21,095 bases of DNA from a virus, in IMG/VR virus record IMGVR_UViG_3300035666_000192, positions 1 to 21,095 of that record. One strand, 5' to 3'. The position numbers and the translations under genes were made by a program. The notes under the pieces were generated by a model, which searched no databases, was not told the origin of the DNA, and worked only from the letters and a program-made list of their open reading frames with translations. Below, in pieces: positions 12,748 through 19,703 of this stretch. The stretch's first letter is position 1. Each line of letters opens with the position of its first letter.

Positions 12748-12802
12748 TACTACAATGCCAGTTATCGGTTATCGGATCAATGTACACTAACCCAAAAAAC
12801 CA

Positions 12803-13075
12803 ATGAGAACCATCTGGGAGTACCCTATAAATCCAACTTCTTGTTGCGAGATTGAAATGCCTTTAAACGCAAAGATATTATGCGTTCAGTTGCAGAATAA
12901 TATTCCTACACTTTGGGCATTAGTAGAAACAGAAGAACCTAAGAGGATTTTTGATATTTTGACTTACTATACTGGTAGCTATTGGATAGATAAAAAAGGA
13001 CAATACATTGGAACTTATCAACTAGCTGGATTGGTATATCATGTATTTGTTAGTCCTCATCCTGCATCTCCTTAG
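12803..13075 (+). CDS. DUF7352-like small protein, 90 aa
   Basis: A 90-residue protein matching the DUF7352 pattern as I recall it: IWEYPINPTSCCEIEMPLNAKILCVQLQNNIPTLWALVETEEPKRIF, then a Y-T-G-S and YIGTYQLAGLVYHVFVS end. Members are common in phages and their hosts, with no settled function; they may be small host-modifying or structural accessory proteins. The 55 bases before it hold a tandem GTTATCG repeat and no clear promoter. A Cys pair (C14, C15) is present near the N-terminus. Family assignment is from the P-L-N-A-x-I-L and L-W-A-L-V motifs. Confidence 0.55.
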   Translation: MRTIWEYPINPTSCCEIEMPLNAKILCVQLQNNIPTLWALVETEEPKRIFDILTYYTGSYWIDKKGQYIGTYQLAGLVYHVFVSPHPASP

Positions 13076-13092
13076 ATAGTCCTTTCGTATAT

Positions 13093-13311
13093 TTGTTAAA
13101 GTTTCTGATCGCATCCCTAATATTTGCCTTTCGTAAAAAATCCTCAAATAAAGAGGGACTTATAACTATCACAGAAATTGACAAAAGAATATTGATTCTT
13201 TTTCAAAAAGTAAGAGAATTGCTTGCCAATGAAAAAGAATCAATCAAAAAAACATTAGCAAAAATAAAATCTCTTGAACAAAGTAGAGGTAAAATCAATT
13301 ATGACTCTTGA
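13093..13311 (+). CDS. Short helical protein with hydrophobic N-terminus, TTG start
   Basis: A 72-residue frame beginning at TTG 13093, the only plausible start since no ATG occurs early. The N-terminus LKFLIASLIFAFRKK is a short hydrophobic segment followed by basic residues, possibly a membrane anchor; the rest (ITEIDKRILILFQKVRELLANEKESIKK, then SLEQSRGKINYDS) is a coiled-coil-like helix. No ribosome site is clear. It overlaps the next small gene by 11 bases. Start and function are uncertain. Confidence 0.45.
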   Translation: MLKFLIASLIFAFRKKSSNKEGLITITEIDKRILILFQKVRELLANEKESIKKTLAKIKSLEQSRGKINYDS

Positions 13312-13444
13312 AGAAATCAACGCAAAATTAGACTTGCTTCTTAAAGAAATAGAAAACTGGAAACCTAAATCTGATTTATTTCTGAAAGAAATAGAAACTT
13401 GGAAGCAACCCAATATTAAAGAAAAAGGAAAAGCTAATGTTTAA
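13301..13444 (+). CDS. Small helical protein, 47 aa
   Basis: A 47-residue frame starting ATG 13301 with GAGG upstream. It overlaps the preceding gene by 11 bases and the thymidylate synthase gene by 8. The peptide (MTLEEINAKLDLLLKEIENW, then KSDLFLKEIETWKQ) contains an internal near-repeat, LLLKEIENWKP and LFLKEIETWKQ, 15 residues apart, suggesting a two-unit helix. Its tight overlap with neighbours supports translation. The function is unknown. Confidence 0.5.
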   Translation: MTLEEINAKLDLLLKEIENWKPKSDLFLKEIETWKQPNIKEKGKANV

Positions 13445-15038
13445 TGCAATCTACAAGCCCAATCAGTTGATTTTAGGCAGTGGCTATATTGCTATCTGTA
13501 CAGGATGGACTCCTGCTAAGTCAGTAGCCGCAAAACTCGATCCTTCCGATTATGCCGTAATTGGTAATCTTTATAGCGCATCAAGGGGAATTAACTTTTT
13601 GGTTCGCAATTTGTTGGCTAATCCCCACGTTTGCGATCTTGTTGTAATGGATTCAACTCGTGAAGACAAAAATTCTGGTAGTGTTCAATGCTTGAAAGAT
13701 TTCTTTGAGAATGGAGTTTATAAAGGAAAAAATGATGTAGGGAAAGAGTGTTGGGTAATTGATTCTTTAGTGAAAGGATATATTGATATAGATATTCCTT
13801 TAGAAGTTTTAAATCAATTACGGTCTTCTGTTACTTTAAGAGATAATCTCACAACTTACGCAATTCTGATGTTGAGGCTATCAGTTTATGGTGCTAATAA
13901 ACCGTGGGCAGAACCGATGGTTTTTCCCTACAATGAACCTACATCAGAAGTAAAACCTGGCCCGCTCTATGGTCATCGGATCGAAGGTAAAACCATTGCT
14001 GAAACTTGGATAAAAATACTGCAAAGAATCAAAACTACTGGCACTATCAGACCTACTGGGTATGATGGTAAATGGCAAGAGTTAATCGACTTAATGGCGA
14101 TAGTTACCGATGAGCCAAAAGATTTTTATTTTCCCGAACCTAACTATCTACCTTTAGACAGAGAGTATCTAAAGAACTATATTCCGCAAATACTTAATGA
14201 TGCTGATTATCGAGAAGGGGTTAAATATACCTATGGTCAAAGATTACGCTCTTGGTTTGGTCAAGACCAGATTAAAGCAGTTATCAACAAATTGATTGAA
14301 GAAAATGACTCAGCTAGTGCCGTTATGTCTTTGTGGGATAGCGGAAGTGGAAACCCCCAAAGTCTTACCAGTGGATGTTACAGCTTGGCTTTAAAAAGTC
14401 AGCTTTTCCGATCAAACGAGCTTTTTTTCGATTCTGACGGGTGGGAAATAGTACCAAATTCTATTGACCGAGGAGGCCGCTCGGTAGGCGATTCAGATCA
14501 TAATCACAGCGGATCTCCCTGTCTCAATCATATCTGGGTAAGAGTAGTAGATAATGAACTATCCCTGACAGCTACCTTTAGAAGTAATGATATGTTTTCC
14601 GCTTGGCCAGCTAATGCAATGGGATTACGGGCTTTACAGCGTCATATCAGAGATGAAATTGCTAGTGAATCTGAGTACGATTTAACAATGGGTCCACTGA
14701 TTACTATTAGTCAATCAGCCCATATTTACGATGACTGTTGGGAGAATGTCGAACAGTTAATTAACAATCAATACCAATCAATTATTAGTCAAGAGTTTCG
14801 AGGCTACAGTGACCCTGCTGGTAACTTCTTAGTAGAAACAGATGGCAATAATATCACGGTTAGTCAGCTAACCCCTAGTGGTGAATTTGTGGGAAAATGG
14901 GAAGGTAAGAATCCTTTGAAGCTAATCCGTCAAATAATTGCCGATTGTCCCAGTATTCAATCTTTTCATATCGGCTACCTAGCTAGAGAAATTGAACGGG
15001 CATCTCAACTAAAAACAAATTACACTCAGGATAAATAA
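13437..15038 (+). CDS. thyA: Thymidylate synthase with MtrA-like N-terminal and DUF4346-like C-terminal domains
   Basis: A 533-residue three-part protein. Residues about 1-150 (YAVIGNLYSASRGINFLVRNL, NPHVCDLVV, LKDFFENGV) resemble MtrA of methanogens, though the cobalamin-ligand His appears absent. The middle is ThyA-like, with catalytic C362 (SPC), R382, S383, D385, N393, H429 and Y431 at spacings matching E. coli C146, R166, S167, D169 and N177. N393 favours dUMP over dCMP. The C-terminal 65 residues (DPAGNFLVETDGN ... FHIGYLAREIERA ... YTQDK) match DUF4346. The double Arg that binds dUMP phosphate from the partner subunit is A293-S294 here, and about 49 residues are inserted between W300 and C362. 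It would make dTMP beside the ribonucleotide reductase genes. TS domain identity is strong; activity is unproved. Confidence 0.85.
   Translation: MFNAIYKPNQLILGSGYIAICTGWTPAKSVAAKLDPSDYAVIGNLYSASRGINFLVRNLLANPHVCDLVVMDSTREDKNSGSVQCLKDFFENGVYKGKNDVGKECWVIDSLVKGYIDIDIPLEVLNQLRSSVTLRDNLTTYAILMLRLSVYGANKPWAEPMVFPYNEPTSEVKPGPLYGHRIEGKTIAETWIKILQRIKTTGTIRPTGYDGKWQELIDLMAIVTDEPKDFYFPEPNYLPLDREYLKNYIPQILNDADYREGVKYTYGQRLRSWFGQDQIKAVINKLIEENDSASAVMSLWDSGSGNPQSLTSGCYSLALKSQLFRSNELFFDSDGWEIVPNSIDRGGRSVGDSDHNHSGSPCLNHIWVRVVDNELSLTATFRSNDMFSAWPANAMGLRALQRHIRDEIASESEYDLTMGPLITISQSAHIYDDCWENVEQLINNQYQSIISQEFRGYSDPAGNFLVETDGNNITVSQLTPSGEFVGKWEGKNPLKLIRQIIADCPSIQSFHIGYLAREIERASQLKTNYTQDK
15017..15038 (+). repeat. 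Left copy of 22-bp duplicated gene end
   Basis: The last 22 bases of the thymidylate synthase gene (AAATTACACTCAGGATAAAT then AA), including its stop codon. A copy with one G-to-A change lies at 15450-15471, on the other side of the winged-helix gene. Confidence 0.85.
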
Positions 15039-15748: not shown

Positions 15749-18001
15749 ATGATTAATGTAATTCAGAGAAATGGAGAAACTCGACCCTTAGACATCACTA
15801 AAATTCGACGAGTAGTTGAATGGGCGTGTGAAGGGTTAGAAGTAAATCCCCTCGCTTTAGAATCAGGATTAACTTCTCGATTACGAGATGGGATTACCAC
15901 TAGAGAAATTCAAGACAATTTAGTTAATGTAGCTACACAATTGTTTTGTGTAGAAGAAACCGATTGGAAGTATGTAGCCGGAAGACTTCACATCTGGGGA
16001 TTATGGAAAGATACAAGGATTAAAAGAGAATTTGGCGGCTATTTATCTCGTACGGTTTTTAGAAGATTGGAAGGAACCGACTACGCTAAATATGTCCAGT
16101 GGCAAGTGGATAGGGGTGTTTATGATTCAAAAATTACTGAAATCTATGACGAAAACGATTTAAAGATTGCGGGGGATTGGATATACCCAGAATACGATAA
16201 AGATTTTGACTACGCTGGTGCAATCATGCTGTCAGAGAGGTATTTGCTTGATTGTGAATTACCTCAAGAGGCTTTCCTGACTTGCGCTTTATTGCTTGCG
16301 AGCGTAGAGGAAAACCCAGAGAATAGATTAAGAATTGCGTTTCAAATTTACTTAGCTATAGCTCAAAGAAAAATCTCTTTAGCTACTCCAATTTTAGGCA
16401 ATCTAAGAACCCCTAATGGTTCTTTAAGTAGTTGCTTCATCGTAGCAATGGAAGACAATCTAGAGAGTATTTTTAGCGAGATTACTAATACTGCTCGCAT
16501 CTCAAAAAATGGCGGCGGTGTTGGGGTAAATGTAAGTAGAATCCGTGCCACTGGTAGCTGGGTAATGGGGAAAGCTAATGCTTCCGGGGGGATTATACCC
16601 TGGATTAAATTACTCAACGATACAGCTATTGCAGTCAATCAAGGGGGGAGACGCGCCGGGGCTGTCACTGTTGGGGTTGATATTTGGCATCTAGATGTGC
16701 CAGAATTTTTAGAAATGCAGACAGAAAACGGTGATCAAAGACGTAAAGCTTATGATGTTTTCCCCCAATTAGTTATTCCCGACGAATTTATGCGTCGGGT
16801 AGTAGATAAAGACGAGTGGACATTAGTTGATCCTTATGAAGTTCGGGCAAAACTAGGGATAGAATTAGCAGAATTATGGGGCGAAAAATTTGAAGATGCT
16901 TACAAATTAATTGAAGATAATCTAGGGACAGAAATTACTCTCTACAGAAAAGTTAACGCTAGGGAGTTATTTAAAGATGTTATGCGCTCTCAAGTTGAGA
17001 CAGGTATGCCCTATCTTGCTTTTAAAGATACCATTAATCGGGCTAATCCTAATAAACACGACGGGTACATCCCTCAAGTTAATTTGTGCTGTGAGAGCTT
17101 CTCTAATGTCACACCGGGTAAAACAGCCCATTGCTGTAATTTAGTTAGTCTTAATTTAGCCAACATTGACACTCTTACTAATTTAGCGGAAATGTGTCAT
17201 CTTGCTGTTAGAGTGCTTGACAATACAATCGACTTGACTTGTCCCCCGATTGGTGAAGCCAAAAAACATAATGACCGTTATCGCACTATTGGAGTTGGGG
17301 TTATGGGATTAGCTGACTGGTTAGCTAAACAAAAATTATTTTATAAAGACTTTAAATCTATCAATGATTTATTTGAAAGAATTAGCTATTATTGTACTCA
17401 CGCTTCGATGAGATTGGCTAAAGAACGCGGTGCTTATCAAGCTTTTTCCAGCAGTGAATGGAGTCAGGGTAAATTACTAGGGGCTAAACCATTAGAATGG
17501 TTCAACGTAAATTCTGATAATACCTATAATTGGCATCAATTAGCCAAAAGTATTCAACAATTTGGCATTAGAAATTCCCATATTACTGCTGTAGCTCCCA
17601 ACACTACTTCTTCCTTAATTCAAGGTTGCACTGCCAGTGTTTTGCCCGTTTTTAAGCGGGTATTTACAGAAAAGAACTCAAAGGGTGCTATCCCTAATTG
17701 CCCTCCTTTTATTAAGGATTTCTTTTGGTATTACCAAGAGAATCAAAATCTTGATCAAAAGATTGTTGTTCAAGCGATTGCTGAAATGCAAAAATGGATT
17801 GATACAGGGATTTCTATGGAATTACTATTTAACCTTAATCAGGGTGTTTATTTTCCTGACGAACCTAACCGCGTATTAACAGTTAAAGAAATTTACGAAA
17901 CTCTAGTTTTAGCGTGGGAATCAGAATGTAAAGCAGTCTATTATGTACGGACTGTTCAGAAGGATAACTTTAAAGATAGCTGTTCTAGTTGTGCTAATTA
18001 A
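15749..18001 (+). CDS. nrdA: Class I ribonucleotide reductase alpha subunit (NrdA)
   Basis: A 750-residue catalytic subunit that reduces ribonucleoside diphosphates to deoxy forms, supplying phage DNA synthesis. Residues 2-90 are an ATP-cone, the allosteric on/off site (VIQRNGETRPLDITKIRRVV). The core has C229 (SLSSCFIV), NGGGVGVNVSRIRA, the radical triad N445, C447 and E449 (NLCCE), C462/C463 (HCCNLVSLNL), Y731-Y732 for electron transfer, and a C-terminal C745-S-S-C748 for reduction by thioredoxin-type partners. All key residues of the E. coli enzyme are present, so it should be active. TAGGAG lies 7 bases before the ATG. nrdB follows after two small genes. The complete ATP cone means dATP inhibition is likely kept, which many phage enzymes lose. 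Confidence 0.97.
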   Translation: MINVIQRNGETRPLDITKIRRVVEWACEGLEVNPLALESGLTSRLRDGITTREIQDNLVNVATQLFCVEETDWKYVAGRLHIWGLWKDTRIKREFGGYLSRTVFRRLEGTDYAKYVQWQVDRGVYDSKITEIYDENDLKIAGDWIYPEYDKDFDYAGAIMLSERYLLDCELPQEAFLTCALLLASVEENPENRLRIAFQIYLAIAQRKISLATPILGNLRTPNGSLSSCFIVAMEDNLESIFSEITNTARISKNGGGVGVNVSRIRATGSWVMGKANASGGIIPWIKLLNDTAIAVNQGGRRAGAVTVGVDIWHLDVPEFLEMQTENGDQRRKAYDVFPQLVIPDEFMRRVVDKDEWTLVDPYEVRAKLGIELAELWGEKFEDAYKLIEDNLGTEITLYRKVNARELFKDVMRSQVETGMPYLAFKDTINRANPNKHDGYIPQVNLCCESFSNVTPGKTAHCCNLVSLNLANIDTLTNLAEMCHLAVRVLDNTIDLTCPPIGEAKKHNDRYRTIGVGVMGLADWLAKQKLFYKDFKSINDLFERISYYCTHASMRLAKERGAYQAFSSSEWSQGKLLGAKPLEWFNVNSDNTYNWHQLAKSIQQFGIRNSHITAVAPNTTSSLIQGCTASVLPVFKRVFTEKNSKGAIPNCPPFIKDFFWYYQENQNLDQKIVVQAIAEMQKWIDTGISMELLFNLNQGVYFPDEPNRVLTVKEIYETLVLAWESECKAVYYVRTVQKDNFKDSCSSCAN

Positions 18002-18058
18002 CCATGAATATCATTTTTTCTGTTATTTTATCAATACTCGAAAAAATAAATAATCATT

Positions 18059-18349
18059 ATGGCAATAATAATTATTAACTTTCTAGCAACTATTGTATTA
18101 AGTATATTTTTACTTTATACTGCTTTAATTTTTGCTGTTGTCTTGTGTAGAGTGTTTTTTAGATTTAAGACTAATTTAATCTACACAGTTAAACAATTTA
18201 AATACTATTTAACAGATGAATATAATCGGATTAGTTCTTGTAAATATTATAATCCTGAAACCCATAAAGATTTTAATCTGAAATGTAGTGTAAATCCCTC
18301 TATTTCTTGTGTACAATGTAGAGACTGGGAACCTTCAGATAAACCATGA
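18059..18349 (+). CDS. DUF6464-like Cys-motif membrane protein, 96 aa
   Basis: A 96-residue protein with an N-terminal hydrophobic helix (about residues 2-33: IIIINFLATIVLSIFLLYTAL, then IFAVVLC). The C-terminal CKYYNP, LKCSVNP, CVQCRDWEPS segment resembles the cyanobacterial DUF6464 family (Cys, then L-x-C-A/S-V-N-P, then C-x-x-C). The five cysteines could bind metal or form disulfides. It sits between nrdA and nrdB, overlaps the next gene by 4 bases (ATGA), and so is translated with it. DUF6464 has no assigned function that I know. The family call is by motif memory and moderate. Confidence 0.6.
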   Translation: MAIIIINFLATIVLSIFLLYTALIFAVVLCRVFFRFKTNLIYTVKQFKYYLTDEYNRISSCKYYNPETHKDFNLKCSVNPSISCVQCRDWEPSDKP

Positions 18350-18635: not shown

Positions 18636-19703
18636 ATGACATTAGCAAATCTTAGCAATAAAATGCCCATTTCCCCGATCTTCAATCCATCGGGGGATGA
18701 TGCGATCAAAAACCGTTCGATCTGGTTTGGTAACACTACTAACTTGATGCAATTAAATGATGTCCGCTACGCTTGGGCTGTAGGTTTATATCAACAGATG
18801 CGTGAAAATTTCTGGATTCCGCAAAAAATAGATATTACTCAAGATATAACTGACTATAATAACTTAACCCTTGATGAAAGACGCGCTTATGATGGTATTT
18901 TATCCTATCTAACTTTTCTTGATTCTGTACAAACCTGTAACATTCCTCACTTAAAATCTTGCGTCACAGCCCCAGAGATCAGCCTTTGTATGGCAGAACA
19001 AATCTCTCAAGAGGCTATGCACAATCAAAGTTATCAATACTTGATTGAGACTATTATTCCCTCAAACAAAAGGGCTGAAATTTATGATTTATGGCGCACC
19101 GATAAAGTTCTCAAGGATCGCTGTGAATTTATTGCTAGTTCTTATCAAAAATATATTGACAGCCCAACACAGAGTAATTATTTTGGTTCTCTGTGTTCTA
19201 ATTATATTCTAGAAGGACTGTATTTCTATAATGGGTTCCAGTATTTTTATAATCTAGCTTCTAGACATCTAATGGCTGGAAGTGCCGATATTTTTAGGAT
19301 GATTAATCGAGATGAGTTAAGTCACGTCCGATTGTATCAAAAATTAATTGTGGAAGCATTGCAATTATTCCCAAAAGAGTCAATTAAAAAAGGCATAGCA
19401 AGTTCTTTTTTGGAGGCTGTCAATCAAGAAATTAATTGGTCCAACCATATTATCGGTAATCAAATACTGGGCATTACTGAAGAAAGTATAGATCACTATA
19501 CTAAATACCTTGCCAATATTCGACTAAAAGCCATCGGCTTAAATCCAATTTTTACCGAGGACAAATACAAAAAATCTCCCTATTCCCATTTAGAGAAATT
19601 CTCTGATACTCAAGGGGAAGGTCACACTAAGTCAAACTTTTTTGAAGCAACTGTTACCAGTTATGTTATGTCTTCTGGCTTAACGGGATGGGATGATATT
19701 TAA
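18636..19703 (+). CDS. nrdB: Class I ribonucleotide reductase beta subunit (NrdB)
   Basis: A 355-residue radical-generating subunit that partners NrdA. The di-iron ligands are D96, E126, H129, E193, E227 and H230, and the tyrosyl-radical Tyr is Y133. Their spacing matches E. coli D84, E115, H118, Y122, E204, E238 and H241. The C-terminal segment (ATVTSYVMSSGLTGWDDI) holds the docking tail with its penultimate acidic residues, which inserts in NrdA. It is thus a class Ia-type, Tyr-radical enzyme. Together with nrdA it should make all four dNDPs. It is the last gene of the operon; the minus-strand LamG fragment overlaps its 3' end by 38 bases. Confidence 0.97.
   Translation: MTLANLSNKMPISPIFNPSGDDAIKNRSIWFGNTTNLMQLNDVRYAWAVGLYQQMRENFWIPQKIDITQDITDYNNLTLDERRAYDGILSYLTFLDSVQTCNIPHLKSCVTAPEISLCMAEQISQEAMHNQSYQYLIETIIPSNKRAEIYDLWRTDKVLKDRCEFIASSYQKYIDSPTQSNYFGSLCSNYILEGLYFYNGFQYFYNLASRHLMAGSADIFRMINRDELSHVRLYQKLIVEALQLFPKESIKKGIASSFLEAVNQEINWSNHIIGNQILGITEESIDHYTKYLANIRLKAIGLNPIFTEDKYKKSPYSHLEKFSDTQGEGHTKSNFFEATVTSYVMSSGLTGWDDI

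Follow-up and report, generated by a model that had tools for sequence, protein, structure and literature searches.

The window analysed here, the whole stretch of 21,095 bases of the viral record IMGVR_UViG_3300035666_000192, carries genes for tail assembly, a RusA-like protein, a DNA methylase and ribonucleotide reductase. An open reading frame on its plus strand, with start and stop checked (13437..15038), encodes a three-domain thymidylate synthase (TS) of 533 residues, recognized by HMM matches. On the same strand lie nrdA, the ribonucleotide reductase large subunit (15749..18001; PF02867, 4.9e-136), and nrdB, the small subunit (18636..19703; PF00268, 1.5e-66). The parts of the synthase gene described below are also on this strand.

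The protein begins with an MtrA-fold N-terminal domain (residues 1-150; 13437..13886), supported by an AF2 model, the VIA structure search and a profile alignment. A linker that occurs in several types across the phages compared (residues 128-160; 13818..13916) precedes the ThyA core (residues 178-448; 13968..14780; PF00303, TIGR03283 and VIA), and a C-terminal DUF4346 domain (residues 459-533; 14811..15035; PF14251) stands immediately 3' of the core. The predicted model of the whole protein has a mean pLDDT of 79.3 and a pTM of 0.76, with residues 305-344, most of an insertion in the core, below 50. This make-up of MtrA-like, ThyA and DUF4346 parts had been proposed in a sequence-only reading and was confirmed by the HMM matches together with the structure match of the N-terminal domain. 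The HMM check suggested by that reading came out clearly for the core (PF00303) and the C-terminus (PF14251), both above their cut-offs, and less so for the N-terminus, which was significant in NCBIfam but below cut-offs and reached only 0.072 in Pfam.

Domains and active site

The core matched PF00303 with an E-value of 1.9e-11 (44 bits, above the cut-off of 24.3). Its best family model was the methanogen TIGR03283 (4.3e-36), whose 124.3 bits fall below the equivalog cut-off of 174.55. Scores against the classical ThyA equivalogs of NCBIfam stayed under their cut-offs, with 25.5-32 bits versus 325-405 for four NF models and 21.2 versus 108.35 for TIGR03284. The Thy1 domain of ThyX (PF02511) was absent from the four Pfam families listed up to E 1.

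Conservation was scored in 116 aligned rows, 54 of them viral (the window, L001, included) and 62 from cyanobacterial genomes. They derive from 130 loci, after removal of 3 without a BLAST match (ORFs of at least 100 aa), 7 truncated ones without a start codon in range and 4 of 400 aa or less. Cys362 (14520..14522), Arg382 (14580..14582; the counterpart of the in-subunit phosphate Arg166), Ser383, Asp385, Asn393 (14613..14615; the uracil-reading Asn), His429 and Tyr431 show no substitution in any of the 116 rows. The sequence-only reading had placed the catalytic residues at exact spacing. Compared with L. casei TS (Cys198, Arg218, Asn229, His259 and Tyr261 in Table 2 of PMC6005164), the residues and three of the spacings agree (Cys-Arg 20, Cys-Asn 31 and His-Tyr 2), but Asn-His is 36 rather than 30, so that this claim was slightly overstated.

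At the structural level, the core model matched L. casei TS with a VIA Z of 18.9 over model residues 185-450. The best VIA matches were the phage dCMP hydroxylase AfhB (9iqu; Z 21.8 over 175-443) and a related FAD entry (9iqc; 21.6), the CMP hydroxymethylase MilA (19.4) was level with TS, and Foldseek ranked T4 dCMP hydroxymethylase first.

For the N-terminal domain, sequence models gave lower scores: E 0.072 and 13.2 bits against a cut-off of 25 for Pfam MtrA (PF04208), and 7.1e-8 and 32.2 bits against 161 for NCBIfam NF002126 searched with the domain alone. The MtrA-named NF002128 matched the whole protein at 1.8e-8, far below its cut-off. A profile search was ambiguous, listing an engineered repeat protein first (E 0.002, over three weak stretches) and MtrA 5laa next (E 0.013). 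The structure search settled the matter: the AF2 model of residues 1-150 (mean pLDDT 89.7) matched MtrA 9qtr in VIA with a Z of 15.7 over 134 residues at 2.1 Å and 5laa with 15.6, while the next unrelated chain reached 7.8. As modelled, the N-terminal domain thus has the MtrA fold. MtrA holds cobalamin via His84, which is linked to Glu54, according to the part of PMC4915002 that describes the site. In the profile alignment to 5laa, His84 falls on position 80, a serine in the window; across the family, all 116 rows have Ser or Ala at this position and Pro, Ala or Ser at that of Glu54. With both residues replaced throughout, cobalamin binding of the MtrA type is unlikely, and the family probably carries an MtrA-like domain lacking it. 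A role in cobalamin-dependent methyl transfer is weakened by the same loss.

The C-terminus matched PF14251, which Pfam names PterinBD-DUF4346, at 2.5e-11 (44.6 bits, above the cut-off of 29.6). This part also gave a weak match to the dihydropteroate-synthase-like TIGR00284, and it is matched by the methanogen MtrA-named NF002128 at a place separate from the match of the MtrA-like part. Since NF002128 covers both halves at separate places, there is a hint that they also occur jointly in proteins without ThyA. A profile of the C-terminal domain found no convincing relative among solved structures (best E 1), a result that says nothing on its fold, and a literature search returned no paper on the three-domain architecture and none with the term DUF4346. 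In classical TS the C-terminal residues close over the folate, and the title of PDB entry 1tda names such a closing role. Here the PF00303 match covers its model only up to position 227 of 266, and the VIA match reaches residue 276 of the 316 of L. casei TS; both stop about 40 residues early, and DUF4346 follows. From these alignments the enzyme seemingly lacks the C-terminal lid of classical TS, for which it may possess a structural stand-in.

The four phosphate-binding arginines of ThyA are regarded as nearly invariant. HMM alignments to S. aureus TS and to the E. coli enzyme (1aiq, itself an R126E mutant) place Ala293-Ser294 (14313..14318) at the partner-subunit pair Arg126'-Arg127'. Of the 116 rows, 115 have Ala at the first position and one has Ser; at the second, 95 have Ser and 21 Arg. 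These 21 rows all come from cyanobacterial genomes, form a single branch (100/93) and have different surroundings of the Cys loop, mostly Pro-Pro-Cys. Further viral loci (L161-L239, the best 80 of 91, many already in the first viral scan) stand outside the 116-row counts. In 21 of these more distant copies, examined by eye (20 frames of 467-562 aa, the other copy, L223, being interrupted by an in-frame stop at 315 aa), Ala takes the first position 18 times, Cys twice (L234 and L238) and Asn once (L239); at the second there are 17 Ser and four Arg (L226, L228, L236 and L239). Both arginines together were seen in no member of the three-domain family, across the 116 rows and the 21 distant viral copies. 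The missing double Arg, already noticed in the sequence alone, therefore stands, and the aligned sequences make the altered phosphate site a family trait, which rules out a phage-specific change. By contrast with the pair, Arg382, Arg205, Lys263, Arg269 and Arg271 never vary across the 116 rows, in which position 199 is occupied by either Lys or Arg.

Arginine loss at this site has been met elsewhere. The E. coli Arg126-to-Glu mutant is reportedly marginally active (Strop et al., by title), and an R178T/R179T double mutant of the L. casei enzyme has been constructed and solved, according to PDB titles. In the portion of PMC6005164 (2018) that treats natural loss, even one missing phosphate arginine is presented as the first case to its authors' knowledge; that VAAP-clade ThyA is active despite a lost partner phosphate arginine, with a raised Km for dUMP.

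The core also holds a 58-residue loop between the LWD and SPC motifs, ahead of the catalytic Cys (residues 302-359; 14340..14513), whereas most cyanobacterial genome copies have 8-9 residues there. The insertion of about 49 residues that had been noted before is thus borne out by the loop comparison (49-50 extra). As a source of the missing arginines it was ruled out as a general answer, although the inserts contain Arg: most cyanobacterial enzymes have neither the insertion nor the pair, so the altered site does not stem from the insertion. Close phage relatives have loops of 38-39 or 58 residues and L050 one of 42; some distant phages have 16-19 or 42-43, and others are short. By sequence, the long loop marks the phage clade of the window, and the disorder predicted beside the active-site Cys suggests that it may act as a flexible flap. 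A phage-style loop of 19 residues was also observed in an Oscillatoriales MAG (L084), possibly a phage-derived transfer or a misbinned phage piece.

Distribution in phages and cyanobacteria

A first viral scan yielded 63 viral loci, and the frame is kept open in dozens of phage contigs. An nrdA-like neighbour was found at 39 of the 54 phage loci with clustered neighbourhoods, and L051 has a close copy of the dCMP deaminase of cyanobacterial loci directly downstream. Comparison of the window with six phage relatives gave dN/dS values of 0.03-0.13 in residues 1-127, 161-301 and 357-533, indicating strong purifying selection. Seven compared phage pairs, 92-97% alike elsewhere, carry differing loops, and loop and linker types combine freely. 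L001 and L007 show zero synonymous difference within the loop, against 0.16-0.35 synonymous changes per site in the flanking segments. The independence of loop types from their flanks and the identity of the L001 and L007 loops at synonymous sites point to recombination that would exchange loop and linker (14340-14513 and 13818-13916) as a few cassette types among diverged phages.

In a tree of 86 rows, with several long branches flagged, the window belongs to a viral clade of 23 rows (99/99); L051 and L054 stand beside Aphanizomenon flos-aquae (100/98). On this topology, thyA has moved between hosts and phages on at least two occasions. A phage collection gave no protein match at 1e-5. Short DNA matches involved six of its records, five Microcystis phages or cyanophages and one mycobacterial prophage, the latter at the DNA methylase. 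Window positions 12768-13103 and 18025-18146 are 86-89% identical to Microcystis phages MaMV-DC, MaMV-DL01 and MaMV-DL02 and cyanophage MaMV-DH01, which hints at a bloom-forming freshwater cyanobacterium as the host. In a plasmid collection the only matches were 13 Apilactobacillus ThyA pieces.

The same architecture occurs at 66 genome-contig loci, 46-62% identical over the best segment, of which 65 are titled as cyanobacterial and one as a Chloroflexaceae MAG. The sequence-only reading had called the architecture archaeal in style; this was not borne out by the loci found, which make the fusion the ThyA of many cyanobacteria, though parts of the protein do score against methanogen-named models.

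We surveyed 146 cyanobacterial genomes, at least 95% complete, for DUF4346, ThyX and ThyA. Twenty-seven genomes have DUF4346 within a frame of about 500-580 aa, and 26 of them lack ThyX; G130 is the sole carrier of both enzymes. Among the 119 non-carriers, 117 have ThyX (that of G088 below the family cut-off) and two, G025 and G072, have neither enzyme. Fisher's test for mutual exclusion gives p 2e-25 with kinship ignored, a value that overstates independence because the genomes are related. All 27 carriers have a PF00303 match in the frame of about 500-580 aa, and the sole other match is a 383-aa frame in a ThyX genome (G132). Similarly, 11 of 12 genomes picked for holding the three-domain gene lack ThyX. 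This exclusion fits the count of 23 ThyX and 8 ThyA among 31 cyanobacteria given in a section of PMC5954106. As a side observation, ThyA is matched twice on contig 72 of Aphanothece G005 (80038-83063), in frames of 580 aa and 499 aa separated by about 2.6 kb.

At 51 of the 65 cyanobacterial loci (a raw count), dCMP deaminase, dCTP deaminase, dUTPase or thymidylate kinase is encoded no more than 6 kb away; one representative of each of these four families was verified by Pfam. Thymidylate kinase is present at 10 loci, dCTP deaminase at 8 and dUTPase at 5; dCMP deaminase is counted at 35 by single-linkage clustering or at 30 by direct BLAST to one representative, and the union is 51 either way. 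The remaining 14 loci, some on cut contigs, have none of the four nearby. Because of the exclusion of ThyX and these neighbours in the pathway from dUMP to dTMP, the family very probably provides its hosts with their working thymidylate synthase, the sole dUMP-to-dTMP synthase of these cyanobacteria, borrowed by phages. Within about 6 kb of thyA, a CobO (cobalamin adenosyltransferase) gene was also seen at 17 of the 65 loci (L066, L080 and L122, for instance), possibly by coincidence of gene order.

ThyA yields dihydrofolate and is normally paired with a reductase. Dependence on FolA was considered and set aside, as the 26 ThyX-less carriers include only 5 strong and 2 weak PF00186 matches and 19 genomes without one. 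Strong FolA matches are nevertheless enriched among carriers of the three-domain ThyA (6 of 27, against 1 of 119 non-carriers; p 1.5e-4). On the phage contigs, PF00186 was matched in 0 of 16, which are possibly fragments. In addition to the RibD-sized frame, 25 of the 26 ThyX-less carriers have a standalone RibD_C frame of some 230-300 aa (the exception, G055, has FolA), as do 20 of 21 ThyX genomes (the exception, G033, also has FolA). The chance that both exceptions among these 47 genomes fall within the 6 with strong FolA is 0.014, for a pattern noticed before testing. This distribution offers a lead: in cyanobacteria, dihydrofolate may usually be reduced by standalone RibD_C. ThyX organisms without recognizable DHFR, such as Prochlorococcus, are described in a passage of PMC1971073 as having reductase genes still to be identified.

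Standalone DUF4346 proteins (frames of 124-190 aa) were also observed in 68 of the 146 genomes, including all 27 three-domain carriers. In at least 17 of 47 genomes, counted by eye, the gene lies 1.4-2.1 kb from standalone RibD_C (G030 contig 67, 236708-239155, is an example), and a 393-aa protein is encoded upstream of it in the two loci examined (L138 and L144). The neighbourhood of standalone DUF4346 and RibD_C is possibly a pterin-related cluster.

Proposed function and alternatives

Given the homology, active-site residues, selection, distribution and gene neighbours, we infer that the phage gene is a copy of the three-domain cyanobacterial thymidylate synthase, in all likelihood methylating dUMP to dTMP with ordinary ThyA chemistry. 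Cys362 would attack C6 of dUMP while Asn393 reads the uracil, and 5,10-methylene-tetrahydrofolate would be the methyl donor, giving both carbon and hydride. The dUMP phosphate would be gripped by Arg382 and other conserved basic residues (candidates are Lys199, Arg205, Lys263, Arg269 and Arg271) instead of the partner double Arg. DUF4346, at the usual position of the C-terminal lid, and the MtrA-like domain would form a cap closing the folate pocket. Together with the adjoining NrdA and NrdB, the dTMP made would supply the phage's own DNA synthesis.

The sequence-only reading had suggested that the altered Ala-Ser site might signal another substrate. This found no support: given the ThyX exclusion, the neighbours that supply dUMP or use dTMP and the retained uracil-reading Asn, the Ala-Ser site is by itself no such signal. 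The dimer, the grip on phosphate or the cofactor site may still differ from those of classical enzymes. A product of the phage enzyme other than dTMP, namely a modified pyrimidine destined for phage DNA such as a hydroxymethyl or hydroxyl pyrimidine nucleotide, would accord with the altered phosphate site, with the phage-clade loop next to the active Cys and with the VIA ranking, in which AfhB (21.8) is clearly above TS (18.9) and MilA level with it; this likeness, however, is a comparison of predicted folds alone, and the active-site residues examined are common to phage and host copies. dCMP hydroxymethylases have Asp at the position of the uracil-reading Asn. That Asp is not present here; Asn393 is invariant instead (116/116), and we regard a modified product as improbable. 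Decay of the phage copy into a dead passenger is less credible still, to the point of being negligible. Missing phosphate arginines, a disordered insertion and the in-frame stop of the distant viral L223 could be read that way, but dN/dS is 0.03-0.13 in three segments and six comparisons and the frame stays open in dozens of phage contigs.

More weight, though still modest, attaches to the idea that the family makes dTMP by a variant chemistry or cofactor, such as another pterin, a bound corrinoid or flavin, or a reaction releasing no dihydrofolate. The 19 of 26 ThyX-less carriers lacking a PF00186 match would then be explained, and the CobO genes near thyA at 17 of 65 loci and the matches of both MtrA-fold and DUF4346 parts to the methanopterin-methyltransferase-named NF002128 (and of the latter to TIGR00284) would agree with it. 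Against this, the cobalamin-binding His84 and Glu54 are replaced in all 116 rows, strong FolA is enriched with the three-domain enzyme (6/27 versus 1/119), and the standalone RibD_C of 45 of 47 genomes, the other two having FolA, could reduce dihydrofolate. Ordinary ThyA chemistry remains our preferred reading. Tentatively, and with some doubt, the family might be described as a third working TS design, in which the MtrA-like and DUF4346 halves around the ThyA core would act as a pterin-handling cap replacing both lid and double Arg, and the phage loop would tune or shield the site.

Comparison with known systems

The enzyme is ordinary in its pathway role and unusual in its anatomy. What is new is a naturally occurring ThyA branch that lacks the double Arg, seemingly has no C-terminal lid and carries two further domains. 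A family that lacks the Arg126' equivalent and mostly that of Arg127' is apparently the only TS of about a fifth of the cyanobacteria sampled (27/146) and is found in many phages, so the need for the partner arginine pair becomes directly testable. DUF4346 and the MtrA-like domain gain a concrete setting, and the finding points to a cyanobacterial dihydrofolate reductase yet to be identified.

With the MtrA corrinoid protein the phage enzyme shares a fold (Z 15.7), but it lacks the cobalt ligand His84 and Glu54. TIGR03283, the methanogen-type TS, is the best model of the core and likewise describes a short core, of 201 positions, but without flanking domains. The three-domain cyanobacterial ThyA agrees with the phage enzyme in domain order, active-site residues and the missing pair, at 46-62% identity; it differs in a loop of mostly 8-9 residues rather than 58 and in a subclade (21 of 62 rows) with Arg at the second position. 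Classical ThyA of E. coli and L. casei has in common with it the fold, the catalytic Cys, Asn, His, Tyr and Asp and the counterpart of Arg166, whereas the phage enzyme is without the partner double Arg, carries two additional domains and has no visible counterpart of the C-terminal segment, where sequence and structure matches end early. The closest parallel at the phosphate site is the VAAP-clade ThyA, also naturally short of a partner phosphate arginine; the sections of PMC6005164 concerned with this clade mention no additional domains and report that it drops only the Arg127' equivalent and retains Arg126', which the three-domain family drops throughout.
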